DNA of 64,000 nt from the NCBI RefSeq assembly GCF_009708215.1, contig NZ_CP046175.1, positions 3,224,001-3,288,000 of the forward strand, given 5' to 3'. The stretch comes from Occultella kanbiaonis. GTDB taxonomy: Bacteria; Actinomycetota; Actinomycetes; Actinomycetales; Beutenbergiaceae. Below the pieces are notes generated by a model. The model worked only from the letters and a program-made list of their open reading frames with translations. It was not told where the DNA came from and did no database searches. Below are positions 218 through 14,100 of this stretch, one piece after another (the stretch's first letter is position 1; the number at the start of each line of letters is the position of its first letter). Made by a program: the position numbers and the translations under genes.

Positions 218-1315
218 TTGAGCCTCGTAGATCAGATCGCCCAGCGCGCCCGGGAAATTCGGACCGACGGTTATAGCATGTCAATAGGTGAGGTCCTCTC
301 CCTTTACCGTGATGGCGACATTGACATTCACCCGGAGTTCCAGAGGATCTTTCGATGGGACGACGACCAGAAGTCGAGGCTCATCGAGTCGGTATTGCTC
401 GGCATTCCGATTCCACCAATCTTCGTTTCACAACGCGCCGACGGCGTGTGGGATGTAATCGACGGGGTGCAGAGACTCTCCACCATCCTCCAGTTCGCTG
501 GAGAATACAAGAACGAGTCTGACATGCCGCAGCCCGAACTTGTTCTTCGAGGAGGAGAATATCTCACAGAACTCGATGGATACGTGTACTCCAAACCTTC
601 CGAGCCGGGCACCACTGCCTTCAATGAAGCACTTAGGCGCGACTTTAAGAGAGCGAAACTCGACTTTAGGATCATCACGAAAGAATCCGATCCGAACGCG
701 AAATACGACCTGTTCCAGAGACTGAACTCCGGATCCGTTCTGTCGCCTCAAGAGGCTAGAAATTGTCTAATGGTGATGATCGATCGTTCGTTCTACCAGA
801 GAGTGGTGGAACTGAGTCAAAACGCAAACTTCCAAGCCTCGGTCCTCCTTTCGGATCGTCAAGAAGAGCAAGCTTACCGTGAGGAATTGGTCCTTAGGTT
901 TTTCTGCCAAGTGGATCTGACAGGCGGGCCCACCGAACTCAAAAAGGAGTACGGCGAATACCTTACCGGCTGGATGCGCAACGCCGCCGACCCGGAGTCC
1001 ACATACTCGCTCGATACGGCAACATTCAACGAGACATTCGAGCTACTCAATCGCGCACTCGGTGAGGATACTTTTCGCCGCCATGAGAATGGTCGCCACC
1101 TCGGCCCGTTCTCGATTTCAAGTTACGAGTTCGTCACATCCGGTGTGGCATCCAATTTGGATCGATGGAGGACTCGCCCGTCTACCGACCTAAAGAGCCG
1201 CGTCGAGAGCATCTGGTCCGCAGACGTTTTCAGGTCCAACTCGGGGACCGGGGTTAGCCCTCGCCGACGCGTGCCTCGGCTCATGTCGGAAAGCCGCAAG
1301 TATTTCGGGGAGTAG
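218..1315 (+). CDS. DUF262 domain protein (ParB/Srx-like nuclease fold), defence or toxin-antitoxin partner
   Basis: The 365-residue product has the DUF262 layout: an N-terminal segment with 'HPEFQRIFRWDD' (about residues 38-49) and the hallmark 'DGVQRLSTI' (about 87-95), which corresponds to the DGQQR nucleotide/nuclease motif of the family (here Gln is Val at one position). A helical tail follows. The TTG start is chosen because an AGGAG Shine-Dalgarno sequence lies five bases upstream and the DUF262 fold begins within 30 residues. DUF262 proteins include GmrS-type restriction subunits and partners of HEPN RNases. The next gene, two bases downstream on the same strand, is such a HEPN protein, so the pair very probably works together. 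GC and codon use are clearly lower than in the housekeeping genes, which suggests horizontal transfer. The molecular activity of this DUF262 protein is not known. Confidence 0.88.
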   Translation: MSLVDQIAQRAREIRTDGYSMSIGEVLSLYRDGDIDIHPEFQRIFRWDDDQKSRLIESVLLGIPIPPIFVSQRADGVWDVIDGVQRLSTILQFAGEYKNESDMPQPELVLRGGEYLTELDGYVYSKPSEPGTTAFNEALRRDFKRAKLDFRIITKESDPNAKYDLFQRLNSGSVLSPQEARNCLMVMIDRSFYQRVVELSQNANFQASVLLSDRQEEQAYREELVLRFFCQVDLTGGPTELKKEYGEYLTGWMRNAADPESTYSLDTATFNETFELLNRALGEDTFRRHENGRHLGPFSISSYEFVTSGVASNLDRWRTRPSTDLKSRVESIWSADVFRSNSGTGVSPRRRVPRLMSESRKYFGE

Positions 1316-1317
1316 CC

Positions 1318-1992
1318 GTGGCGATCGTGACCGACGAGGACTTCGAAGCTTTCTTGGACGAAGAACTCGCATGGCGACGAATCGAGTTGTCAGCATTCTC
1401 AACTCAACTCGAGACGGCGGCAGGAAGAAATAGCGATTCACCGACGAGCCGCGCCCTTTCGCGCGGAATGACGACTCTTCTTTATGCACACTGGGAGGGT
1501 TACGGTAAAGCCGTATTCGACGCGTATCTTCGTCTCATTATGAAGCGAAAACCACTGGTCTCCGATGTGGCAGACGGACTGCTTCGTGCACACACAATTC
1601 AACTTGTTCGTCGGATGGAAAGCGGAGACGAATCGGCAAAGGTCGAGCTGATCGATATGGCCCGGGGGAAGGCGACAGGTAGGCTCCGCATCACAAGTGC
1701 GCGGGTAGTCGACACGAAATCGAATCTTCGTTCTAAGGTTCTCGAGGAGATCATGACGACTCTCGGAATCCCTCGAATCGAATTTGAGACAAAGCAGAAC
1801 CTCATCGATATTCTTCTGTGCGACCGCCGCAATGAAATTGCGCATGGCCGTGCGAGTTTTCCAAGTTGCGACGACGTGCTCGACCTCCACAAGAAGGTAC
1901 TGGGGATGATGGAAGCGTTGAGGTCCGTCACCATTTCCGAGATCCGCATCAAGGGGTACAGGCACAATGGATCGGCGTCCGCCAATGGATAA
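1318..1992 (+). CDS. MAE_28990/MAE_18760-type HEPN nuclease
   Basis: A 224-residue, mostly helical protein. Near residues 170-177 it has 'RRNEIAHGR', the R-x4-H active-site motif of HEPN RNases, preceded by a long helix with 'HWEGYGKAVFDAYLRL' (about 60-75). The layout matches the MAE_28990/MAE_18760 HEPN family, which is often found beside DUF262 genes. HEPN proteins of this kind are metal-independent RNases used in abortive infection or toxin-antitoxin modules. The GTG start sits two bases after the DUF262 stop, so the two genes form an operon and are likely translationally coupled. Which partner is toxin and which is antidote cannot be decided here, although the intact HEPN motif makes this one the likely effector. 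Confidence 0.85.
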   Translation: MAIVTDEDFEAFLDEELAWRRIELSAFSTQLETAAGRNSDSPTSRALSRGMTTLLYAHWEGYGKAVFDAYLRLIMKRKPLVSDVADGLLRAHTIQLVRRMESGDESAKVELIDMARGKATGRLRITSARVVDTKSNLRSKVLEEIMTTLGIPRIEFETKQNLIDILLCDRRNEIAHGRASFPSCDDVLDLHKKVLGMMEALRSVTISEIRIKGYRHNGSASANG

Positions 1993-2209: not shown

Positions 2210-2692
2210 TCACGTGAAGCGAAGGACGACTGGCATCAATCCGCACTCCCCTGCCCCTCCACGATCCACAAGTCGCTCAGCGAGAGTCGCACGGGCGGCA
2301 CCCTGACTGAGTGCGACGGAGAACTTCAGGCCAGCAACTGCCTGGGAATTGATTGCTGGCAGTGCAGTTTCAACAGATGCGGCGCGCAGGTCCGACAACC
2401 CTGTCGCCTCATCCAACGTAAACCGGTGGTTGTCCACACCGTCCCCAGCCTCAAGGGACGAGACCAGTGTCTCGTTTGCACGCATCCCAGCCCAACTCCA
2501 GAACTCTCGTCCTATCGGAGTTTCAAATAGCACCAAGCCACCCGGATCGACCACCTTGGCCATCTCCTCACGGATCCCCGTTAGCCGCTCCGTAGCCACG
2601 CCTCCCGGATAGCCGCCTTCAGAAGAGTCTTTCGCGATCCCGGGTGTCAGCAGCTTTCGCTTGCGGTCGACGCTGCAGGTCGATGTCCGCAC
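2210..2692 (-). pseudogene. possible remnant of an unidentified gene
   Basis: An open minus-strand frame of 160 codons overlaps the 3' end of the EVE-HNH gene by 74 nt. Its middle part has a protein-like composition with 'DPGGLVLFETPIG' (roughly residues 49-61), reminiscent of the strand-turn of Rossmann methyltransferases, but no complete domain can be recognised. It starts with GTG and has no convincing ribosome-binding site. The neighbouring HNH protein also has an unusual tail in this stretch, so the junction may be a recombination scar. It could equally be a non-coding open frame. The 217 bases between the HEPN stop (1992) and this frame hold nothing I recognise. Confidence 0.25.
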
Positions 2693-3569
2693 CAGGGCCT
2701 TGATCCGTCAGCCAAGGAAGCGCTCGGTTTCGGGCATCGAGGATCGCCGCATCAGGATGGGCCGCACGTGCTCCCGGTAGCGCGAGCGCGGCGCCTTCAA
2801 TTGCTTGGTATGCATCATCGGCCACGGATGGTTCGACGCGGACCACGTACGCACCCTGCGTCTGCACAACCGTGAGCAGGTTGAGGTCGAAGAGCGTGTG
2901 AATGTCGGCACGGAGCAGGAGCCCGTTGGCGACCGCGTTGGTGTGGGCGCCCCGGTACGGCGAGATGTGCGCCGCCTCAAGGACCGCCACGGTCGTACAG
3001 CCGGTCACCGCGCATCGGCGGTCGTATGCCGCGAGCAACGAGTCTCGGAACTTGCCCTGGCCTCGCCGGATCGCGATCTCGGCGAGCGTCCGCTCGCGGC
3101 GATCTTCGCCGAGATCACTCAACTGCCTCGCAGCTTCGGTCCCCGTCGCAAAGGCCGCGGCGACCTCGTCCACAGCGGTATCCGTGAACCACTGCCGCAG
3201 CGCCCGCTCGACCGCTCCGTCCTTCGAGTGCGGAGCCCACGACGGGCTCTGGGTGAAGCCGGTCTGCGACTTCACCTCCGACCAACTCGGGGACTTCCCG
3301 ACAAGCTCATCGGTACGCGCGAACTCGAATCGCTGAACATAGCTCCGCACCCCCGCGTCCGTCCAAGGCAGTCCGTCAGTGCTATCCAGCGGGCGCGCGT
3401 CGGTTGCGACTTCAGCCCTACCCACGAACCCTGTCTTCGCCGCCCAGAAGTACACGACGTCGCCCTCATGGATCGGCCGGCTGGTTGTCATGTCCCACAA
3501 CGCCTGCTTCTTGGCGATCTCCCAGTGGTGCACATACTCCTTGGCAATGCTCAGCACCCAACTTGCCAC
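2619..3569 (-). CDS. EVE/PUA-like domain fused to HNH endonuclease
   Basis: A 316-residue, two-domain protein. The N-terminal 120 residues resemble EVE/PUA domains ('EGDVVYFWAAKTGFVGRA', about 35-52), a fold that reads modified bases in DNA or RNA. The C-terminal part is an HNH_2-type nuclease: 'CAVTGC' (about 190), 'LEAAHISPY' (about 200) and 'NGLLLRADIHTLFD' (about 216-229) give the Cys pair, the catalytic His and the final His. EVE-HNH fusions are predicted modification-dependent (type IV-like) restriction enzymes. The GTG start is preceded by GAGG eight bases upstream. The gene lies in a block of defence genes and appears to have its own promoter region (3570-3700). The last 30 residues run past the usual end of the HNH domain. 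Target specificity is unknown. Confidence 0.85.
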   Translation of the reverse strand: MASWVLSIAKEYVHHWEIAKKQALWDMTTSRPIHEGDVVYFWAAKTGFVGRAEVATDARPLDSTDGLPWTDAGVRSYVQRFEFARTDELVGKSPSWSEVKSQTGFTQSPSWAPHSKDGAVERALRQWFTDTAVDEVAAAFATGTEAARQLSDLGEDRRERTLAEIAIRRGQGKFRDSLLAAYDRRCAVTGCTTVAVLEAAHISPYRGAHTNAVANGLLLRADIHTLFDLNLLTVVQTQGAYVVRVEPSVADDAYQAIEGAALALPGARAAHPDAAILDARNRALPWLTDQGPGADIDLQRRPQAKAADTRDRERLF

Positions 3570-3700
3570 GACATACCTCGTCCCCGTTTGTGGCGGGTGG
3601 AGGCATGTCCGGTTCGGAAGCCTGTCGGGCCGCTTGCTATTTCTGTGGTTGTAGTTGCGACAGCGTTGCCGTCGCGTCCGCGCGGTCTCCCGCGCGAAGG

Positions 3701-5605
3701 TCAGGTTCTTCGTCGCGGGTTCACGCGGCTGCGGAGCATCGCCTGCGTCTCCTCGTCGACGGAGTAGAGCAATGTGCCCACCAAGCCGCGGGTGAGCAGC
3801 ACCTTGTAGACGTGTCGGACGAGGCGGTCGAAAGTCGCGGCCTCGACGCTGGTCCGCGATCGGAACTCGGGATCCTTGTTGAACTCACGCCGGGCGACCC
3901 ATCGATCCGATCGCCACACAAGGTCCGGGCCGAAGATCACCCCGTTCCAGGCGTACTCGAAGCCTTGTGCCGTGTAGACGCAGCCGACCTGGTCGAAGCC
4001 AGCCGGATCGGACGCCCAGAGCGACGATGGCGGCGCGCCGCCTACGGCGCGGTCGCTCTTGAGGTTCCACGGCCGGGACCAGGCGCCGATCCGCACATCC
4101 GGAACCAGGGACCCGTCCTTGCGCGGGTCACTCCACGGCCAGCAGTAGCCCGCCGTCATCCGGGCGTTCAGACCGCTCTGGAGGTAGGTTCGGAGTCTTC
4201 CTTCGAGTTCCTCGACTGACGCAACGACGTCGACGGCGAACGTCGGCTCGTCGTGCCAAGTGGGCACTTCCGTAGAGCCCTCCTCTGCGGCGAGGCCCAG
4301 CAGCGAGTGCACCCAGTTGAGGTAGGTGGTGCTGCCACCCGAGCGGAACTGCGCGTTCAGATCCACGGCGTGCACGTCCATGCCGCGTCCTCGCGCATGT
4401 TCAATGATCTGCTGGACGGTGCCCATCTCCCCCGGACGCACCACCTGGTGCTCGTCGAGCAGGAAGACCGGCACCTTCGCGACGGCGAGGAGCTCCTCGA
4501 CCTGGTCTCGGGCGTTCTCCCGCAGCGCCTTCGGTGTGTAGCGATTGACCGACTTCGCGCGGATCCGGTGAGCCTCATCGAGGATGACGACCTCGAGCGA
4601 GCCGGGCTCCGCCGCCATGAAGGAGTTGAAGTACTTGAAGAGAGTCTTCGTCCGGGATGAGCCGCGCCCGGCGACCTGGCGCATCGTCTCCGTGAAGGAC
4701 TTCGAACCCGTCGCATGCACGACGCTGACGCCGCGCCGCGCGAGTTCGCCGAGGAGCGACAACGCGATGACGCTCTTCCCGCTGCCGGCCGAGCCAGTGA
4801 CCACGACTACGGCGCGCCGGTTCTTGGCGCGAGTTTGCTCGACGGCGTTCAGCACCAACTCGTAGGCGACCCGCTGTTCGTCCAGCAACACGAACTGCTC
4901 GCGGTCCTGGATCTCGGCGGCCGCGACCGAGAGCAGTTGCTTTGATGGGGCGATCTTCGAGGCCAGCAACTCCCGTGCGGATTCGGGGCGTGGCACTGAC
5001 GCGATCCGTGTCCTGAGGTAGTCGCGAAGCGCATCTCGACCCTGCCCGGTGAACATGCGGTGGGTATCGGTGCCGTCGAGCCGCCACAAGTCCGCGACAG
5101 TCGTATCCGTCGCGTTGTGCAGGTACGCCACGCTCGAGACTGAGCCTGGCTCCCCCGCGACCACCGACACGAAGTCCTGCAGGTACTCGCGATAGCCCTG
5201 AACCTGAAGCAGCGGGTGTAGCGAGGGCCGGTATGGCGCCCCGTCCACCTCGACCAGGGTGTTCGAGGTGCCCCAGGCCGTCGCTGAACTCCACTGCTTG
5301 AGTTCGACGACCACATAGCTGGCGCCGCCGGTCCCGGGATCTTGCCCGGCAAGAATCACGTCGGCGCGCTTGCTCGACAACGGCAGCGGGTACTCGAGGA
5401 TGACGTCGACCTCGCCGAGGCCGGCCGCTATGAGCTCGCGACCGAGGATCGGAAGGCTCGACCGCCACGACTTCCGCTCCGCCAGGCTCGGCGCACCGTG
5501 TCCACGCAGCACGAGTGCATTCTCGAGCGCTTCCTCGATCGGCGAGAAGTCGCCTCCGCGTCCCACGTCGAGCGCCGTCGCCGGCAAGGTGACGGGATCG
5601 AGCAC
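3701..5605 (-). CDS. nuclease-helicase: PD-(D/E)xK-like domain plus DUF2075 (Schlafen-type helicase)
   Basis: A 634-residue protein. The N-terminus (about 60-120) carries 'RADVIL' followed by 'YVVVELKQW', the D...ExK signature of a PD-(D/E)xK nuclease. The DUF2075 P-loop part starts near residue 260: Walker A 'GSAGSGKS' and a DEAH-like Walker B 'VVILDEAH'. Later 'QFRSGG' (motif IV-like) and 'YTAQGFEY' (motif V/VI-like) complete a superfamily-1-like helicase core. DUF2075 proteins with N-terminal nuclease regions occur in phage-defence islands, and their substrate is unknown. The GTG start has a GAGGGGG Shine-Dalgarno upstream. A 14-bp inverted repeat (5622-5635) lies just before it and could be an operator. 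The gene is transcribed alone, between the EVE-HNH nuclease and the reverse transcriptase. Confidence 0.85.
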   Translation of the reverse strand: MLDPVTLPATALDVGRGGDFSPIEEALENALVLRGHGAPSLAERKSWRSSLPILGRELIAAGLGEVDVILEYPLPLSSKRADVILAGQDPGTGGASYVVVELKQWSSATAWGTSNTLVEVDGAPYRPSLHPLLQVQGYREYLQDFVSVVAGEPGSVSSVAYLHNATDTTVADLWRLDGTDTHRMFTGQGRDALRDYLRTRIASVPRPESARELLASKIAPSKQLLSVAAAEIQDREQFVLLDEQRVAYELVLNAVEQTRAKNRRAVVVVTGSAGSGKSVIALSLLGELARRGVSVVHATGSKSFTETMRQVAGRGSSRTKTLFKYFNSFMAAEPGSLEVVILDEAHRIRAKSVNRYTPKALRENARDQVEELLAVAKVPVFLLDEHQVVRPGEMGTVQQIIEHARGRGMDVHAVDLNAQFRSGGSTTYLNWVHSLLGLAAEEGSTEVPTWHDEPTFAVDVVASVEELEGRLRTYLQSGLNARMTAGYCWPWSDPRKDGSLVPDVRIGAWSRPWNLKSDRAVGGAPPSSLWASDPAGFDQVGCVYTAQGFEYAWNGVIFGPDLVWRSDRWVARREFNKDPEFRSRTSVEAATFDRLVRHVYKVLLTRGLVGTLLYSVDEETQAMLRSRVNPRRRT

Positions 5606-6030
5606 GGGGCCCCCTCAAGCAGCACGAAGTCGTGCGGAGGGGGCATGTCTGCGAGCAGAAGTCCGTCGGTACCGCGGGTTCGACCAATGCTAGCGAAGGT
5701 GCGAACTGCCCTGCGTACCAATCGTCACGCTCACCTGAGGCAGCCAGACAGACCTCACGACAGGACTCTGCACCGACGAGCGACTCCACCGGTAGAGCGC
5801 CTGGCTCGCACTCCAGTACGGGCCAGTGCTTGGACCGGCTAAGACATCGCAACACGTCTCGCAAGGAAACCCGCGGCCCACACCTTCCTCCCGTCGCAAG
5901 GCGTCGAGCGGCAGCCGTCTTCGTCACCTGAGCAGTACCGAGTGTGAGACTTGCCATCCTCGGTAGACCTCGACACCTACCCGGGCCGACGCGCCAGCCC
6001 GTACTACACCCTCCGCTGAGAAGAGCCAGT
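5606..6030. other. 425-bp spacer with a dyad and a weak tRNA-like patch
   Basis: I see no convincing protein gene between the helicase start and the reverse transcriptase stop. Two things stand out. The first is a dyad of six-base arms GCACGA/TCGTGC around AG at 5622-5635, directly upstream of the helicase ribosome-binding site. The second is a stretch at 5782-5816 on the plus strand that resembles a D-arm and anticodon arm of a tRNA (GGTAGAGC followed by CTGG...CCAG), but it lacks a T-arm and an acceptor match. The stretch could hold promoters or an RNA linked to the reverse transcriptase, but nothing in it proves this. Confidence 0.4.
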
Positions 6031-7569
6031 TCACTCGTCGGCATACAGGTACAGCGGTGCCCGTCCGGACACGACGCCGAGGCCGTGGGTGGACACTGCC
6101 AGCCGAATGACCTTCGCAATCTTGCGAACGCTGGGCATCCTCAAGTCCACGACATCGCCAGAGCGCGAGGATCGTGAGGTGAAGCCGATAAGTTTAGCCT
6201 TTTGAAGCGTATGAGGCAACGGAAGAGCGAGACCCGCGGCGCGGAGGATGCGCGCACGTTTACGCATCGCAAGCCAGATTCGTGCTGCGATCCACTCGTC
6301 AAGCTCTCTTAGTCCGCGTTCGTCATTTATCAGGGGAAAGAAGGACATGACTCCCTCGAAGGACATTGGTGGTATCGCCCCTGCTTGAAACTTTCTGATG
6401 CCCTTCTCGGTCAAAGGGCCGTATAAATATCGGCGCAATTGCCAGATCAGAGTTGCATAGTCGCGATCGACATCACTGAGTCGACTCGGTTCCTGGGTTC
6501 CGTTGAGTGGCTCCAGAAGTAGGTTGGTGAAGATCAACTCGCCTATTCGGGCCTTTATTCGGTTGACCGAAGCATCCTTCATGCGGACGTCGCGGAGCCC
6601 GAGCCGGTGCCCGAGGTAGTCGACGTACTTTGTCGAGGACATCTCGACGTGCACGGTCTCTTCTTTTGCGAGCAGGCGTATTCCCAAGCTCTTCTCGGAG
6701 TTGATCGGCGAACCGATATGGCTTGACGCTTCATGAAGGATGGACGCAGCTTCGCCGATGCGCCCGTAGTCTGTGCTCCAGATGAGCGTGTCGTCTGCGT
6801 AGCGGACGAAACCGACCCCGAGCCTCTCTAGTGCGCGATCAAGTTCCGATGCGGCAACGTTGGCGAGAAAGAGACTTATGGAGGTCCCTTGCGGGACGCC
6901 TCGCTTGCGCGCGGGCTTGCTAGCGAGCTTTTGCGCGGGCGAGAGATATGGCTCGGGCGATTCGAGGAAGCGCTCGATCACGTACTGCTCCAATGGCGTC
7001 CTTGTGATGCCCATCGTGTCGAGTGTTTCCAACAGGAAATCGTGGTCGACCGTGTCAAAGAACTTGCTGAAGTCGTACTCGGCAACAAACAGTCGGTGTT
7101 CACGTGCGAACTCGGTCGAGACGTACGAGATTGCGTCGTGCGGACTCAGGTCGGGGCGGTAAGCGTACGCGCGAGCGCTCATCCGTGGAAGATTCTTCCG
7201 CGTTAGGGACCGCAGTAGGCGGTTGGAGATCACCTCGTCCGCGATCTGGAATGTGCTAATGATCCGTTCGCCGCCGGAAGGTTTAGGCACGCTGAAGCCT
7301 GCGGGATGGCGGGGCGCATAGCTGCGATCTCTAAGGCTCTCCGTGATCGCGTGGGCGATGCGTTGATGACGAGACCGGACGATGTATGGGTTGAAGCCCG
7401 GATCGAGATCCCACGTCTCAGGGCGCCGAACTTGGAGGACTTCCGGGATTCCGATGCTACGCCGGCGGCGTCGGTCGTTCTCGTCGTGGACAGACTTGGC
7501 GTAGGTCTCGTGCTCCACGATGAGCCGAGTGGACGTCTGCTGGACCCTCTGGTCAAGTTCCCACCACAC
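6031..7569 (-). CDS. stand-alone reverse transcriptase, probably defence-associated
   Basis: A 512-residue RNA-directed DNA polymerase. Core motifs are present in order: fingers 'VPKPSGGERIIS' (about 94-105), motif A 'YDFSKFFDTVDHDF' (about 160-173), motif B 'GVPQGTSISLFLAN' (about 222-235), catalytic 'RYADDTL' (about 254-260), and a thumb with 'YLGH'. There is no maturase/X domain, no HNH domain and no recognisable group II intron around it, so a mobile intron is unlikely. The motif set resembles the unknown-group/Abi and DRT reverse transcriptases used in phage defence, but I cannot assign a subclass. The C-terminal 170 residues have no recognised domain. The GTG start is fixed by AAGGAGG seven bases upstream, and a 15-bp hairpin (7596-7628) sits just before that site. 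It is divergent from the PLD-EVE/HNH pair. Lower GC than the core genes supports transfer. Confidence 0.88.
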   Translation of the reverse strand: MWWELDQRVQQTSTRLIVEHETYAKSVHDENDRRRRRSIGIPEVLQVRRPETWDLDPGFNPYIVRSRHQRIAHAITESLRDRSYAPRHPAGFSVPKPSGGERIISTFQIADEVISNRLLRSLTRKNLPRMSARAYAYRPDLSPHDAISYVSTEFAREHRLFVAEYDFSKFFDTVDHDFLLETLDTMGITRTPLEQYVIERFLESPEPYLSPAQKLASKPARKRGVPQGTSISLFLANVAASELDRALERLGVGFVRYADDTLIWSTDYGRIGEAASILHEASSHIGSPINSEKSLGIRLLAKEETVHVEMSSTKYVDYLGHRLGLRDVRMKDASVNRIKARIGELIFTNLLLEPLNGTQEPSRLSDVDRDYATLIWQLRRYLYGPLTEKGIRKFQAGAIPPMSFEGVMSFFPLINDERGLRELDEWIAARIWLAMRKRARILRAAGLALPLPHTLQKAKLIGFTSRSSRSGDVVDLRMPSVRKIAKVIRLAVSTHGLGVVSGRAPLYLYADE

Positions 7570-7595
7570 CAGCGCCTCCTTCGTCGTGGAGAGGG

Positions 7596-7628
7596 TGCTG
7601 GGGCTGAGCGGTGCGCTCAGCCCCAGCA
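7596..7628 (-). ncRNA. strong hairpin in the leader of the reverse transcriptase gene
   Basis: A perfect inverted repeat: arms 7596-7610 and 7614-7628 pair over 15 bp around a three-base loop. On the reverse transcriptase transcript it would lie about 26 nt before the GTG start and immediately before the AAGGAGG site. No run of T follows on either strand, so it does not look like an intrinsic terminator. It could be part of a structured leader, a non-coding RNA partner of the reverse transcriptase (as in retrons and some DRT systems), or a translation control element. The rest of 7570-7931, the divergent gap, shows no other clear feature except two GTGATC words at 7705-7719. Confidence 0.45.
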
Positions 7629-7931
7629 GCGGCTTCGAGTCCAGGCAAAATGTGCTTCACGCGGGCAACCAACTCGCGAAGGCGACCCCTAGCGGAGCAG
7701 ACAGTGATCAACCGTGATCTGCTCCAAATCGGCTCGATGCCTAGTCCCACTGGGGACCTGCGCCGAATACTACCGGCGCGGACGCTCGTCCTGACCGGAC
7801 TGACGTGCCTGGTAGTCATCACGGTGTCGATGCAGGTGATGGGCGCGGGTGACACTCACCGAGACCGGCCCCACGCACGCGCAACTTCTCGAGACGACCA
7901 CATCGACGGCGGCATTCGCTACGTTGAGCAT

Positions 7932-8942
7932 ATGGATCGTGTCGCTCCGCTTGGGTTGGTACCCCGAGCTCACGAGACGCTCATGTCGGCGGTCGGCGCG
8001 GCACGCGAGTCCGTGCTACTTGCCAGCCCTTACCTCGGCGGCAGGGTCGCGGGAGACCTTGCCGTGATTGCCAAGTCTTCCGCTGCGAGTTGGCGTCTCC
8101 TGACGGATCTCTCGCCCATCGCCATTGCATACGGATCACTGAATACGGAGGGTCTCCTGGCGCTGCTCCGGAGTGGAGTCAAGGTGCGGAGTCTAAGGCG
8201 GCTCCATGCGAAGGTCACCCTCTGCGACGGCGGCTTCGGTCTCATCGGTTCTGCAAACCTGACGAGCCCTGGGCTCGGCGTCGCGTCGCCATCGAATTTC
8301 GAAATCGGAGTCCTCCTCAGCGCCGACCAGCGAACGTCAGCCAGAACAGTGTTCGACACGTGGTGGGATGACGCCGTCGGGGTCGACCAACGAGCCATCA
8401 AGGACGCCGAGGCAGCGGCACGGCTTCTACCCAAGCCCGTGCGGGAGCGCACGCGGGGTCGAGCCAGTAAGACTGGCAGCGTTCTGGCGAACACTCTTAT
8501 GGCCGAGGCCCGTGATCGCGGGTTGTGGGTGAAGGCGGTGGACCACAGCGAGCCGTGGAAGCGGGGTTTCTGGTTCTCAAACTCGTCAAGAGGCCAACCA
8601 CGGTTCCGCGTCGGAGACCTCGTTCTGATGTACGCCAAGGATCTACGTGCCTGCAACGCCATCGTCGAGGTCCTTGAAGAGAGCCGAAACGACCCGCCGT
8701 ACATGGAGCGCTCGGGCGCGTCCAGCTACGAAGCGCACCGATGGCCGTGGGTGAGCAATGTCAAACCGCGTCTCAACATCCCCGAAGCAGAGGCGATACC
8801 ACTGGCTGAACTTGGTGCGACTCCCAAAGCGCTTCAGAACGGGTACAAGCGCCTTGACCTCGCACAGTTCACTGCCGCTCTCCGGTACATCATTGATCTC
8901 GAGCCGCGCGAACCCTCTGCATCTGGAAGGTCGAATGGTTAG
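7932..8942 (+). CDS. PLD-family nuclease with C-terminal EVE/PUA-like domain
   Basis: A 336-residue protein. Residues about 1-155 form a phospholipase-D-like domain with one HKD motif, 'HAKVTLCD' followed by 'GLIGSANLT' (near residue 95). One motif per chain implies a dimeric active site, as in Nuc, NgoFVII and BfiI-type nucleases. From about 185 to the end the sequence ('FRVGDLVLMYAK', 'HRWPWVSNVKPRLNIPEA') looks like an EVE/PUA modified-base reader. The ATG at 7932 is chosen because the PLD fold begins there. The same frame stays open back to 7611, but that stretch is unlike the family. The stop overlaps the next gene by eight bases, so both are probably one two-subunit or two-enzyme unit. 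The gene is divergent from the reverse transcriptase and shares its promoter region. Confidence 0.82.
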   Translation: MDRVAPLGLVPRAHETLMSAVGAARESVLLASPYLGGRVAGDLAVIAKSSAASWRLLTDLSPIAIAYGSLNTEGLLALLRSGVKVRSLRRLHAKVTLCDGGFGLIGSANLTSPGLGVASPSNFEIGVLLSADQRTSARTVFDTWWDDAVGVDQRAIKDAEAAARLLPKPVRERTRGRASKTGSVLANTLMAEARDRGLWVKAVDHSEPWKRGFWFSNSSRGQPRFRVGDLVLMYAKDLRACNAIVEVLEESRNDPPYMERSGASSYEAHRWPWVSNVKPRLNIPEAEAIPLAELGATPKALQNGYKRLDLAQFTAALRYIIDLEPREPSASGRSNG

Positions 8943-10101
8943 CTCCGCCCCTACGTTTACATACCCAACCGTCGAATGGGTCAAGGCGCCGATCACGCTC
9001 GAATCCGGCCGACCGTCCGGCCAACGGATCCGCATGCGGCATCTGCATGACTGCGACCACTGGTACCACGACGAGGCCGGAGATCTGATCGGCGGTGCGC
9101 CGCGACGGGCCACAGATGCGGAGATGCTCGATCTCGTCCCGTGTGCCGACTGTCAGCGCCGCGCAGAACAGCGAGGCGATCCTGCCGACGGGGTCCGCGG
9201 CCTCGTCCCTGCGCGACGCTACTGGTGGGCAAGTCAAGGCGAGAACCACGCGATAGCCCTCGAAGAGCAGACACTCTGGACGTACGCGGATCCCAATCGA
9301 CGTCGGCCGCTGCTGAGCGAGATGCAGGTCGGCGACGTGGTGCTGCACTACGGCGACAGGCTCCTGCGCACGATCAGCACGGTCACGACAGATCCAAGGC
9401 CGGCACCTCGCCCTGTCGGATACCCGCGACGGCCTGGCCAGGGTGACGACGGGTGGCTCGTCGAGGTGAACGTCGACGACACCACACTGCACTTATCGTT
9501 CCGCGAGATCCAAGAACTCATCTCACCCGGACCTCCTGGACCACTAGACAAGAACGGCACACCGCGGCGGAACTTCATCGCACGCCTGACCGAAGATGAG
9601 GCCACGCGGCTCATCGATGCCGCGGAGGCCCAATTGCCCTCACCACCCGACGCCGGCTTGATTGGCGGTCTCCTGCGCAACTGGGGTCTCGACGGGACCG
9701 ACTCCGAGGCCATCACACAGATCCGCCGAGAGCAGGGGCACCTCCGGGCAAGCCTGCTCCGCGCTCGCGCCACGGCGCCATGTGACGTCTGCGGTCGGGA
9801 ACTGCCAGCCACTTTCCTCGTCGCAGCCCACATCGTGCCGCGTCGCGACCTCACCCACGAAGAGCGGCTCGATTTCGCGTCCGCAGCGATGCTCGCATGC
9901 GCTCTCGGATGCGACTCCCTCTTCGAGTGCGGCTACATCGTCATCGACGACGACGGGCGCATCGCGCGAGGGCGACCAGCGGCGGCCGAAGCACTGCTCT
10001 ACGAGATCAACGCCCTCATCGGAAGGACATGTCTCGCGTTCAATGGCGTGCGGGCACCAAGTTTTGCTCGGCACCGCGGATCTCACCTCGAAGGGGTCTA
10101 G
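8935..10101 (+). CDS. EVE-like domain plus HNH endonuclease
   Basis: A 388-residue protein. A short N-terminal part has a possible zinc ribbon ('HDCDHWYH' and 'CADCQRR', about 40-80). A middle domain beginning 'RYWWASQGENH' (about 98) and containing 'MQVGDVVLHYGDRLLRTI' resembles EVE/PUA domains. The C-terminal HNH nuclease shows 'CDVCGRELPATFLVAAHIVPR' spread over about 282-302, then 'CALGCDSLFECGYI', giving paired Cys, the catalytic His and an Asn/Asp-replaced third position. The ATG at 8935 is preceded by GGAAGG and overlaps the end of the PLD-EVE gene by eight bases, a sign of translational coupling. The likely role is modification-dependent DNA cleavage alongside the PLD partner. Specificity and cooperation are inferred. 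Confidence 0.82.
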   Translation: MVSSAPTFTYPTVEWVKAPITLESGRPSGQRIRMRHLHDCDHWYHDEAGDLIGGAPRRATDAEMLDLVPCADCQRRAEQRGDPADGVRGLVPARRYWWASQGENHAIALEEQTLWTYADPNRRRPLLSEMQVGDVVLHYGDRLLRTISTVTTDPRPAPRPVGYPRRPGQGDDGWLVEVNVDDTTLHLSFREIQELISPGPPGPLDKNGTPRRNFIARLTEDEATRLIDAAEAQLPSPPDAGLIGGLLRNWGLDGTDSEAITQIRREQGHLRASLLRARATAPCDVCGRELPATFLVAAHIVPRRDLTHEERLDFASAAMLACALGCDSLFECGYIVIDDDGRIARGRPAAAEALLYEINALIGRTCLAFNGVRAPSFARHRGSHLEGV

Positions 10102-10226
10102 CTGAACAAACCCACGACGTGGCGACCCTGGTCAACCAATCATGGTAGACCGATACCACTCATCGCCCGACATCGCGTCCTTGTTCGCGGGTGCGCGCCC
10201 GTACGCGGCAGCAACGTGGCGACCAT

Positions 10227-10979
10227 CTATCGGAACTCGGTGGAGACAGGCTCGAGAAGGAAGAGAGTCGTGTCCGGTTCGAACGCTCCGACTCGAGCGA
10301 CAATATGGAGATTGTCCCCGACGCCTATGTCATCTGGGATGTCCTGCCCCACCAGGTGCAAGTCGTAAGTCGTATTGACGTCACGGAATTGGAAATTGGG
10401 CCCTCCCGACGACTGAGTCTCGCTATAGTCGCCATATGCAACTAGAATGTCATAGCGCGTGTCGTAGTCTCCATGAGCGTTCATGGCGCAGATGCTGCCA
10501 TCGAACTCAATGAGGCTGCCGCCGTAGTTCTGTGCGAACTCCTCAACTGCCGGCCCATCTGCCGACCCTGTCAAGAGCGCCGCGAGATCCTCGTTGTTCT
10601 CCGCAGTCAGCATCTCTTCATCAGGGGTCCCGCTCGGACTTGACGTCTCGGTCACCTCTTCCGAAGGCTGTTCACTCGTGATGCCCAGCCCCTCGGTCGG
10701 AGGCGCGGACGACTCAGGAGCATCTCCGCCTTGGCTCGCGCCGATGATGATGGCGATGACAGCGATCAGTGCGACGACCGCTCCGGCCGCTAGAACGGCC
10801 ACCATCCGCCGCTGCATCTTGGGTTTGGCGCGGCGCAACGTGAGTTCCGCCTGAACCTTTCCCGGGCTTTGGGACACGAGTTCCCAGCCCTCCTTCTGCC
10901 ACTTCGCGATCGTCCTGGCCTCCATGCCGCGGATCGAGCGAACGGTCTTCGCTTCGTACTTCACTTCGGCGTCAGCCAT
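10227..10979 (-). CDS. DUF4839 membrane-anchored protein
   Basis: A 250-residue protein. Residues about 1-55 are a small soluble domain ('GMEARTIAKWQKEGWELVSQ', seen also in DUF4177-like domains), followed by a single transmembrane helix at about 62-84. Next comes a low-complexity Ser/Pro/Glu/Thr linker, then a DUF4839 domain with 'IEFDGSICAMNAHGDYDTRY' and 'DLHLVGQDIPDD'. The C-terminal domain is likely outside the membrane. The ATG at 10979 has GAAGG eight bases upstream and is preferred over an upstream TTG. It converges with the EVE-HNH gene and is the last gene before the housekeeping region. DUF4839 has no established function. Confidence 0.8.
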   Translation of the reverse strand: MADAEVKYEAKTVRSIRGMEARTIAKWQKEGWELVSQSPGKVQAELTLRRAKPKMQRRMVAVLAAGAVVALIAVIAIIIGASQGGDAPESSAPPTEGLGITSEQPSEEVTETSSPSGTPDEEMLTAENNEDLAALLTGSADGPAVEEFAQNYGGSLIEFDGSICAMNAHGDYDTRYDILVAYGDYSETQSSGGPNFQFRDVNTTYDLHLVGQDIPDDIGVGDNLHIVARVGAFEPDTTLFLLEPVSTEFR

Positions 10980-11174
10980 ACAGACCTTCAACCCCAATCG
11001 GATTCATCAGCCGTGGACGTCGGCTAGCCGGCCGGCTTTGCCGCTCTCAAGCGCGTGCTGCGAGAACCCAACTACACCGTGGCCAATAACAGAGATCGGT
11101 ACCGCAGCTTGCGGGCGTGCCATTCAGCGTGCCACGACGAGGGCGCGCAGGAGGGTCAATCGGCGCCCGGATGC

Positions 11175-14100
11175 TCAGCCGAAGAACACTCGCTCCATCA
11201 CAACCCGCGCCTGCCGAGCCGTGCGCAGCCAGTCCTCCTCCAGGTCCCGGGCATGCCCGGCCTGGTAGCCGAGCAACCTCGACACCCCTCCGAGCTCGCC
11301 CCGCTCCGATGGCAGCACGTCCACCTTCTGGCCGCTCACCCGTCCGGTGCTGAGCACGATCGCGTTCCGCAACCGGGTGGCCAGCTCCCACGCAGCGGTG
11401 AGCTGTTCGGCGTCGGACTCCGAGATCAGGTGCGCGTCGCGGGCGGCGGCCAACGCACCCAGCGTCGACGTTGTCCGCAGGGCCTCGAACTCGCCCGCGT
11501 GGCACAACTGGAGGTATTGGGCCGTCCACTCCACGTCGCTCAGTCCGCCGCGGCCGAGCTTCAGGTGGTGTGTCGCCGGCACACCGCGGGGCAACCGCTC
11601 GGACTCCACCCGCGCCTTGATCCGGCGCAGCTCGCGGATCTCGGCAAGGTCGATCCCGGTGGCGGGGTAGCGCAGCGGGTCGATCAGGGCGGTGAACCGC
11701 TCCCCCAGGCCGACATCCCCCGCCACCGAACGCGCCCGCAGCAGGGCCTGACGCTCCCAGCCCTGCGCCCACCGCTGGTAGTACTCGGCGTAGGAGTCGA
11801 TGGTCCGCACCACCGGGCCCTGCCGGCCCTCGGGGCGCAGTTGGGAGTCCACCGAAAGCACGGGCTCGGGGCCGGTCTTGCCGAGCAGGGACGCGATCGT
11901 GGTGGCGACCAGGACCGCCCAGTCCTGGGCGGCCTTCGCGTCAGCACTCTCGTGCGGGTCGTGCACGAACAGCACGTCCGCATCGGAGGCGTAGCCGATC
12001 TCGGCGCCGCCGAGGCGGCCCATGGCGACCACGAGGAACACCGACGGGTCGGCGCCCAGGCCCAGTTCCGCCGTCGCGGTCTGGGTGGCGATCCGCACGG
12101 CGCCGGCCAGTGCCATGTCCGCGGCCGGGGTGACCACCTGCGCGCACGTGGTCACCGGCACGTCGGCGAGCACGTCGCCGATGGCGCCGCGGGTGAGCTC
12201 GCGGCGGCGCAGGAACCTAACCGCCTGGGCGGCGTCAGTGGGGTCGTCGCGGCGCAGCAGCATGGCGTTCATCGCGGCCGCCAACGCCTCGGCAGTACGC
12301 GGGGTGAGTTCGCGGTCGTCGCCGAGCCAGGCGACGGCCTCGGGGGTGCGCAGCAGCGAGTCGGCCACGTACTTCGAGGAGGACAGCAGCGTGGCCAGGC
12401 GTTCGGCGGCGGCGCCGGAGTCGCGGAGCATCTTCAGGTACCAGTGGGTGCCGCCGAGCTCCTCGGAGAGCTTGCGGAACGCGAGCAGGCCGCCGTCGGG
12501 GTCGGGCCCCTCGCCGAACCAGCCGAGCATCACCGGCAGCAATTGGCGCTGGATGGCGGCGCGGCGGGAGATGCCCTCGGTGAGGATCTTGATGTGTCGC
12601 AGCGCCCCGGCCGGATCCCGGTAGCCGATGGCCTGCAGCCGGGCCTTCGCAGCCTCGGGGTCGAGGGAGACGTCGTCCGCGGAGAGCCGTGCTGTGGCGG
12701 GCAGCAGCGGGCGGTAGTACAGCTCCTCGTGCAGGCGGCGGACCCGCCGGCGGATCGCCTGCCAACGCGCCACCAGGTCCTTGGCGCCGGCCACCTCCCC
12801 CTCGGGTGAGCGGCCCATCGACCGGGCCAGGCGGCGCAGGTCATCGTCGGCCGTGGGCAGCAGGTGGGTGCGGCGCATCCGGTACAGCTGGACGCGGTGC
12901 TCGAGCACGCGCAGGAACCGGTAGCAGGCGCCCAGTTCGGCGGCGTGGTCGCGGCCGACATAGCCGCCCGCGGCCAGGGACTGCAGGGCGCGGAGGGTGT
13001 TCGCGGACCGGATCGAGGGGTCGGTGCGGCCGTGCACGAGCTGCAGCAACTGCACGGTGAACTCGACGTCGCGCAGGCCGCCGCGGCCGAGCTTGATCTG
13101 CCGGTCCGCCTCCGCGGGCGGCACGTTGTCCTCGACCCGGCGGCGCATCGCCTGGGAGTCCTCGACGAAGTTCTCCCGGCCGGCGGCCTCCCACACCATC
13201 GGGCGGGTCGCGGCCAGGTAGGCGGCGGACAGGTCCACGTCCCCGGCCACGTGCCGGGCCTTGAGCAGGGCCTGGAACTCCCAGGTCTTGGCCCACCGCT
13301 CGTAGTAGGACACGTGCGAGGCGAGGGTGCGCACCAGCGGGCCGTTCTTGCCCTCCGGGCGCAGCGCGGCGTCCACCTCCCACAGGGCGGGCTCGCGGGC
13401 GGGCATCGAGCACATCCGGGCCAGGGTGGCAGCGAGCTTCGTGCCGACCCGCAGGGCGACGGCCTCGTCGGCACCGTCGACCGGTTCGGCCACGTAGATG
13501 ACGTCGACGTCGGAGATGTAGTTGAGCTCCCGGCCGCCGGTCTTGCCCATGCCGAGGACGGCGAGGCGTACGTCCTTGCCGTGGTCGGACAGTTCCGCCC
13601 GGGCCAGGGCCAGGGCCGCCTCGAGCGCGGCGGCGGCGAGGTTGGCCAGGGCGGCGCCGACCTCGGGCAGGAACGCCTCGGGGTCGGTGGCGGTGAGGTC
13701 CTCGGTGGCGATCGTCAGGAGCGCGCGGCGGTAGGCGCGGCGCATCTCGTCGAGGGCGCCGTCGCTGGCCCGCACGGACGCGACCGGCATCGCCGCGTCG
13801 GGGTCGGCGCCGACCGATTCCAACAGTTGGGTGCGCACGTTCGCCGGGTCTGCGGCCACGCCGTTGCGGGGGCGCAGTACGTACTCGACGTCGCCGGGGT
13901 GGGCGACCAGCCAGTCCCCCGTCGCCACCGACGCCCCGAGGACCGCGATCAGGTTGCCCCGGGCGCCGGCTGGGTCGGCGAGCACCTCGGTCAGGCGCTC
14001 GGCCCGGTCGGGGTCGGCCTCACCGAGCCGGGCCAGCGCGAGGAGCGCGAGGTCGGGGTCGGCGGCGCGGGCGACGTCGGCGATCAGCGCCGTCGACGCC

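Follow-up and report, generated by a model that had tools for sequence, protein, structure and literature searches.

Overlapping genes for two putative modification-dependent nucleases, a PLD protein with an EVE-like domain and a zinc-type-EVE-HNH protein, in an actinobacterial defence hotspot

The stretch of Occultella kanbiaonis DNA considered here (contig NZ_CP046175.1; 64,000 nucleotides (nt), referred to as the window, whose positions are used for all coordinates unless another locus is named) contains two overlapping genes that encode putative modification-dependent nucleases. Gene 1 (7932..8942, forward strand) encodes a 336-residue PLD nuclease with a C-terminal EVE-like domain, as judged from its translation, a match to Pfam PLDc_2 and a family alignment, and gene 2 (8935..10101, forward strand) encodes a 388-residue protein in which a zinc-type N-terminal domain is followed by an EVE domain and an HNH nuclease domain. 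A first-pass annotation made from the sequence had given the overlap as 8 nt, and this is exact: the ATG of gene 2 lies at 8935 and the TAG of gene 1 occupies 8940-8942. A ribosome-binding-like stretch, GGAAGG (8925..8930, forward strand), is found within gene 1 at 4 nt 5' of the gene 2 ATG, the junction reading GGAAGG TCGA ATGGTTAG. Because the genes overlap, they are likely to be co-translated from one mRNA. The start of gene 1 at 7932 agrees with the extent of its alignment to relatives, and its frame stays open upstream as far as a GTG at 7611. A scan of positions 7500-10300 for promoters and terminators found none, and a search of positions 5400-11200 against Rfam gave no match.

In gene 2, the EVE domain (residues about 95-235; 9217..9639, forward strand) and the HNH domain (residues about 255-387; 9697..10095, forward strand) are both below threshold when the single protein is compared with Pfam (EVE, E 0.084; HNH_2, E 0.0061). 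Their assignment comes from VcaM4I, an EVE-HNH modification-dependent endonuclease of solved structure (PDB 6yex), which phmmer matches over residues 95-343 of gene 2 (E 2.4e-9) and which a profile of the 12-member gene 2 family finds at E 1.4e-33 over profile positions 1-259 of 301. The middle EVE domain and HNH end reported at first pass are thus borne out, the EVE fold of gene 2 resting on homology to the solved enzyme. In the profile alignment, the catalytic residues H224, D250 and D254 of VcaM4I, with structural roles as given in the excerpted text of PMC7897488, correspond to H299, D327 and E331 of gene 2, so that the histidine and D250 are kept and D254 is replaced by glutamate. Glutamate occupies this last position in 12/12 family members, and the catalytic histidine is present in 10/12 and replaced by tyrosine in the other two (L040:6454-7371 and L065:4995-5894), hinting that these two proteins may be inactive or repurposed. 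The base pocket of VcaM4I (P24/W82/Y130) aligns with Y117/Q169/F214, with P24 and W82 not conserved and an alignment that is uncertain near W82. VcaM4I-type endonucleases cleave in dependence on 5-methylcytosine (5mC) or 5-hydroxymethylcytosine (5hmC).

Gene 2 departs from VcaM4I in two further respects: the relatives that were found and aligned are mostly actinobacterial, and there is an additional N-terminal domain of about 80 residues (8935..9174, forward strand), which the first-pass annotation had overlooked. These first ~80 residues align with a 109-residue open reading frame (ORF) of another genome and with stretches, not annotated as genes, of two Rhodococcus qingshengii plasmids (three such plasmid records matched, two of which were compared). 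This alignment supports the start of gene 2 at 8935, and the domain thus exists elsewhere as a small separate open frame. H36, C40, H42, C70 and C73 are invariant across the four aligned rows, a pattern that suggests zinc binding. The domain is lacking in the 11 other EVE-HNH proteins aligned. For three of them the aligned sequence began at a later start codon, and a profile of the domain did not find it in the full open frames of those three loci either. Over 92 loci the same profile matched only the loci of the window's own genome and those of the separate open frames, and searches of viral and phage DNA did not find the domain.

The N-terminal part of gene 1 is recognized by Pfam PLDc_2 (E 4.2e-9; 36.8 bits against a cut-off of 27) and contains a single HKD motif, H92-x-K94-x4-D99 (8205..8228, forward strand), followed by S107, N109, N122 and E124. 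Six proteins of the family were aligned, namely gene 1, two proteins of Dietzia plasmids and three relatives encoded in other genomes; H92, K94, S107, N109, N122 and E124 are invariant among them (6/6), and the position of D99 is occupied by aspartate in 2/6 and glycine in 4/6. The resulting pattern, HxK...GSxN...E, is reminiscent of PLD restriction nucleases of the BfiI/NgoFVII type; Pfam NgoFVII matches in the relatives are weak (E 0.018 at best). Among solved structures, the gene 1 PLD profile best matches chain 7clg (E 1.9e-7), a code found once in a paper on SauUSI, described in the excerpted text as a type IV enzyme of PLD-ATPase-SRA architecture, dependent on 5mC or 5hmC and dimerizing via its PLD domains (PMC7913695). 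The DISARM protein DrmC provided the top PADLOC models for gene 1 (best E 5.7e-7), but the candidate was rejected: the NCBIfam DrmC model scores 30.4 bits against a cut-off of 133 and most of the PADLOC matches are limited to the region of the PLD motif, so that the resemblance is read as one of shared PLD fold only.

The C-terminal domain of gene 1 (8484..8906, forward strand) is a putative modified-base reader of the PUA superfamily, and its assignment depends on profile comparison. Used as a query, an EVE profile built from six EVE domains of other genomes in the order, five of which exceed the Pfam cut-off, recovers the gene 1 domain family at 64.1% in hhalign (87 columns), next to 62.3% for the EVE family of gene 2. 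In the opposite direction, with the families as query, the values against the EVE profile are 19.4% and 64.1%, respectively. When the columns of the gene 1 domain were shuffled 40 times and used as query, the maxima were 1.2% against the EVE profile and 0.8% against the gene 2 EVE family, to be compared with real values in the same direction of 19.4% and 15.5%, and EVE-type profiles reached at most 0.2% against PLD, HNH and zinc-type profiles. Because the values exceed both the shuffles and the non-EVE controls, the domain is provisionally held to be EVE-like, far over background yet unproven, and it is in this qualified form that the earlier description of gene 1, one HKD motif and an EVE-like C-terminus, can be retained. 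A 207-residue open frame elsewhere (L050:1219-1839; 141 residues from its first start codon) matches the C-terminal domain of the PLD-EVE family only (E 4.9e-11) and has no PLD part.

In overlapping genome samples at the level of order, phylum, class, genus and family, gene 1 finds matches at E <= 1e-3 in 12/396 genomes of the order, four of them nearly full length (own genome included), and in 15/396 genomes of the phylum, where only the own-genome match is full length; the family profile at E <= 1e-8 finds 7/394 genomes of the class, again full length in the own genome only. Gene 1 is present in one of the four genomes of its genus, and the families of its three relatives from other genomes yield 1/13, 1/47 and 1/94 genomes, always the starting genome. 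Three of 72,556 plasmid records match gene 1, and in two of these, both from one Dietzia strain, the match covers >90% of the query; none of 50,697 phage records matches. Viral contigs contain one relative, with the PLD part only, a contig scan by patterns from gene 1 alone, which reaches close relatives only, gave two partial PLD matches, and the EVE-like domain was not found in the search of viral and phage DNA. Gene 2 has matches in 22/396 genomes of the order. Those spanning EVE and HNH come from the own genome and six more, and in a further two (L012 and L013) the match extends into the EVE part only via the family profile. It also matches 18 plasmid records, ten of them starting at or before query residue 97, and five viral contigs, two of them over EVE and HNH, with no match in phages.

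The pairing itself was found nowhere else. When both profiles were run over all open frames of at least 60 residues in 92 loci, the two families occurred together only in the loci of the own genome. No gene 2 partner lies near any of the five nearly full-length gene 1 relatives (flanks of 0.9-6.8 kilobases (kb), one being a 3.1-kb contig), and no gene 1 partner lies near any of the 13 gene 2 relatives (flanks of 3.1-6.9 kb per side; 5 of the 18 plasmid records were examined). Adjacency is therefore a single observation, and both types of enzyme evidently persist alone. The first-pass annotation had proposed a coupled two-component system and had named beforehand, as grounds for giving this up, that the genes be adjacent only here; within this sampling, conserved adjacency in more than one lineage was not seen, and the proposal of a coupled system is not supported.

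Each half of the pair has counterparts among known or predicted type IV enzymes. EVE-HNH and EVE-PLDc fusions were already given as predicted type IV enzymes in 2020, as far as the excerpted text goes (Bell et al. 2020, PMC7641849). For the pair as such, searches of open-licence literature found no named PLD-EVE plus EVE-HNH system, in agreement with the first-pass remark that none of this exact composition was known by name. Like gene 2, VcaM4I combines EVE, linker and HNH in one chain that aligns over both domains. The EVE-PLDc fusions (PMC7641849, excerpts) resemble gene 1 in that a single polypeptide with predicted type IV restriction combines PLD nuclease and EVE-like parts, a likeness of class description rather than of sequence; the EVE-like domain of gene 1 is sub-threshold in Pfam. 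SauUSI shares with gene 1 a single-HKD PLD domain expected to dimerize and a C-terminal reader of modified bases, its SRA domain having the PUA-like fold in common with EVE; unlike SauUSI, gene 1 lacks an ATPase/helicase domain, and its reader is EVE-like instead of SRA. The PLD-wH enzymes Aba4572I and CbaI likewise have a PLD domain followed directly by a modification-reading domain and no motor, but there the reader is a winged helix that recognizes N6-methyladenine (PMC11037411, excerpts). Levels of biochemical support differ: EVE-HNH enzymes are described as purified, assayed proteins (PMC7897488, excerpts), for PLD-wH enzymes the excerpted text reports cell toxicity only and no purified active enzyme (PMC11037411), and searches of open-licence literature found no assay of an EVE-PLD enzyme. 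Because EVE-HNH and EVE-PLDc fusions are already described and their combination was not found named, the locus represents known enzyme kinds in a new arrangement, one of its domain fusions being new as well.

We regard it as probable, though well short of certain, that the two genes specify restriction-type nucleases of type IV (modification-dependent), each autonomous, and that a single mRNA serves for the translation of both. Such a reading would agree with the first-pass view that both proteins look like modification-dependent nucleases, to judge from the matches to VcaM4I and SauUSI, and several observations favour it: the alignment of gene 2 to VcaM4I takes in both EVE and HNH, with the catalytic histidine and both acidic positions kept (one as glutamate), neither family has the other nearby in its relatives (0/5 full-length gene 1 relatives and 0/13 gene 2 relatives), which speaks for autonomy, and the surroundings contain a DRT9 reverse transcriptase (RT), a GmrSD_N/HEPN pair and genes for an HNH_2 protein and a Schlafen-type helicase, a defence context in keeping with a presumed anti-phage role. 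As in the VcaM4I model, the EVE domain of gene 2 would flip out a modified base, which would release an autoinhibited HNH dimer and lead to a metal-ion-dependent cut in the DNA nearby. Gene 1 would read DNA via its own EVE-like domain and cut, without a motor, through a PLD site that a homodimer would form, in the manner of SauUSI and BfiI. An operon with two readers and two chemistries of cleavage could then allow a wider range of modified phage DNAs to be attacked, or provide redundancy.

A number of points weigh against two autonomous nucleases. The EVE assignment of gene 1 is under the Pfam cut-off both in the whole protein (E 0.014) and for residues 185-325 alone (141 residues; E 0.0026; score 18.2 bits, cut-off 23), the hhalign comparison of this domain with the gene 2 EVE family is weak (15.5% with gene 1 as query, 44.7% in reverse), and single-sequence AlphaFold2 models of the whole of gene 1 and of its C-terminal domain were poor (mean predicted local distance difference test scores of 32 and 46) and were not used. 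On the side of gene 2, the tyrosine found in place of the catalytic histidine in 2/12 family members means that not every member need be a nuclease, and the W82 stack is missing in the profile alignment to VcaM4I. The genome also contains a gene for a C5 cytosine methyltransferase (C1:678823-680040; PF00145, E 9.8e-67), and an enzyme that attacked 5mC in general would therefore endanger the host's own DNA. Taken together, the apparent loss of a W82 equivalent and the host methyltransferase would argue against indiscriminate 5mC cutting. By inference from the enzyme families, the target may instead be a bulkier or otherwise different modification, or cutting may depend on sequence context or on the presence of several sites. 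Lastly, the 8-nt overlap could mean that both proteins act together.

That last point is the core of the alternative in which the PLD-EVE and zinc-EVE-HNH proteins are obligate subunits of a single complex. Each subunit would then cut its own strand or verify what the other has recognized. The overlap and the GGAAGG stretch inside gene 1 favour matched synthesis, and the extra N-terminal domain of gene 2, unseen in the 11 aligned relatives, could be a contact surface. However, this domain is also found as a separate open frame elsewhere, the pairing occurs in no other examined locus and the families persist alone with their catalytic residues kept (6/6 for gene 1 and 10/12 for gene 2), which makes an obligate complex unlikely, though it is the least unlikely of the alternatives. 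A more elaborate version, in which the zinc-type domain docks the PLD-EVE protein and DNA with two kinds of modification, or with the same kind on each strand, is cut only when both readers agree, would make it possible to destroy phage DNA and still retain the host's C5 cytosine methylation; we consider it the most doubtful of the readings discussed here.

If the overlap is instead given no meaning beyond a shared promoter, the two genes simply landed together in a recombination hotspot, a scenario that departs from that of two co-translated autonomous nucleases solely by denying any benefit of pairing. The pair is indeed unique among the loci examined, the hotspot content varies between congeners and the three gene 1 relatives are each sole finds in their family samples. 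Nevertheless, an 8-nt overlap with a ribosome-binding-like stretch exceeds mere adjacency, and fortuitous neighbourhood is judged improbable, even if the pairing within a defence hotspot is probably a one-off rather than a new two-part immune system. PLD and PUA-type domains are known in RNA enzymes, so the readers might see modified tRNA or phage RNA and the pair might be an RNase or abortive-infection device. RNA-directed relatives of type IV systems (CoCoNuTs) have been predicted (PMC11090510, excerpts), but of the relatives with solved structures the two closest, VcaM4I and SauUSI, have modified DNA as their substrate according to the excerpted accounts, and a role in RNA cleavage seems to us about as improbable as chance adjacency. 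On balance, two autonomous type IV nucleases translated together is the reading we prefer.

What the locus contributes is a tandem and a novel fusion of domains within an enzyme class already known, without introducing a new principle. Genes for both types of reader-nuclease adjoin each other here, the EVE pocket seems altered and the host probably methylates its own cytosines. The locus is therefore a useful natural case for two questions: which bases are read by EVE domains that do not belong to the VcaM4I group, and whether type IV restriction becomes broader or more selective when readers are stacked.

From left to right, the neighbourhood comprises the GmrSD_N and HEPN genes, the HNH_2 and Schlafen-type helicase genes, the DRT9 RT, the gene pair, a DUF4839 gene, glnE and a glutamine synthetase gene. 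The RT (6031..7569, reverse strand; 512 residues) is the divergent neighbour of gene 1, with which it shares an intergenic region, and is a strong match to PADLOC Drt9 (588 bits, E 3.6e-177, versus 108.5 bits for the next-best model). The 211 nt upstream of it (7570..7780, reverse strand), which contain a UUUU stretch, fold with a z-score of -4.71 (0/200 shuffles fold as well) and have no Rfam match; they are a candidate for the non-coding RNA described for DRT9, a system consisting of RT plus non-coding RNA and sometimes a SLATT protein (PMC12483538, excerpts). RT and candidate RNA are likely to make up a complete DRT9 system in an actinobacterium. Since the RT is divergent, DRT9 is known as RT plus non-coding RNA and the only RT match among 59 loci is that of the window itself, the RT is probably a separate system rather than a partner of the gene pair; the excerpted DRT9 description names neither a PLD-EVE nor an EVE-HNH partner (PMC12483538).

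The site beside glnE is a variable defence hotspot. glnE is present in 4/4 genomes of the genus, and the G+C content of 1-kb windows is 0.53-0.67 in the island and 0.70-0.75 in glnE. One of three congeners keeps the HNH_2/helicase stretch (2598-5703) beside glnE at 86% identity and has no match to the stretch from DRT9 to DUF4839, so that this pair recurs where the gene 1/gene 2 pair does not. The two other congeners have no match past the end of glnE; two of the three congener cut-outs stop at a contig end after 7.6 and 8.6 kb. The HNH_2 protein (2619-3569, reverse strand; Pfam HNH_2, E 1.4e-12) has an HNH part that matches VcaM4I (E 1.4e-4) and an N-terminal part that is EVE-like by eye and has no Pfam EVE match, and the adjacent helicase gene (3701-5605, reverse strand) is of the Schlafen type (SLFN-g3). 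Further left, a gene for a GmrSD_N/DUF262-type protein (218-1992, forward strand; PADLOC NsnA, E 1e-55) is followed after 2 nt by the start of a gene for a RiboL-PSP-type HEPN protein, which is likely to represent another defence pair.

Minor observations concern relatives of gene 1 and the host methyltransferase. The two Dietzia plasmid proteins (L060:3939-6173 and L061:4930-6993) have an N-terminal extension of ~350 residues with CxxC/H motifs, HNH-like by eye, and were considered as a Rosetta-stone case for coupling of HNH to PLD. This idea was rejected, as Pfam gave HNH at E 0.28 for one protein and nothing for the other, and a PDB search returned one irrelevant match (E 1.4). The cysteine-rich extension is a separate gene in Gordonia plasmids (L101-L103), where a DNA methyltransferase gene adjoins it in 2/3 loci viewed, and in one Dietzia plasmid the PLD-EVE fusion adjoins methyltransferase and helicase genes. 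In the own genome, the C5 cytosine methyltransferase gene (locus L090) precedes two large genes in which, by eye, a DUF262-like stretch and an ATPase-like stretch, respectively, can be made out; L090 probably represents a further locus of restriction type, from which host 5mC might stem.

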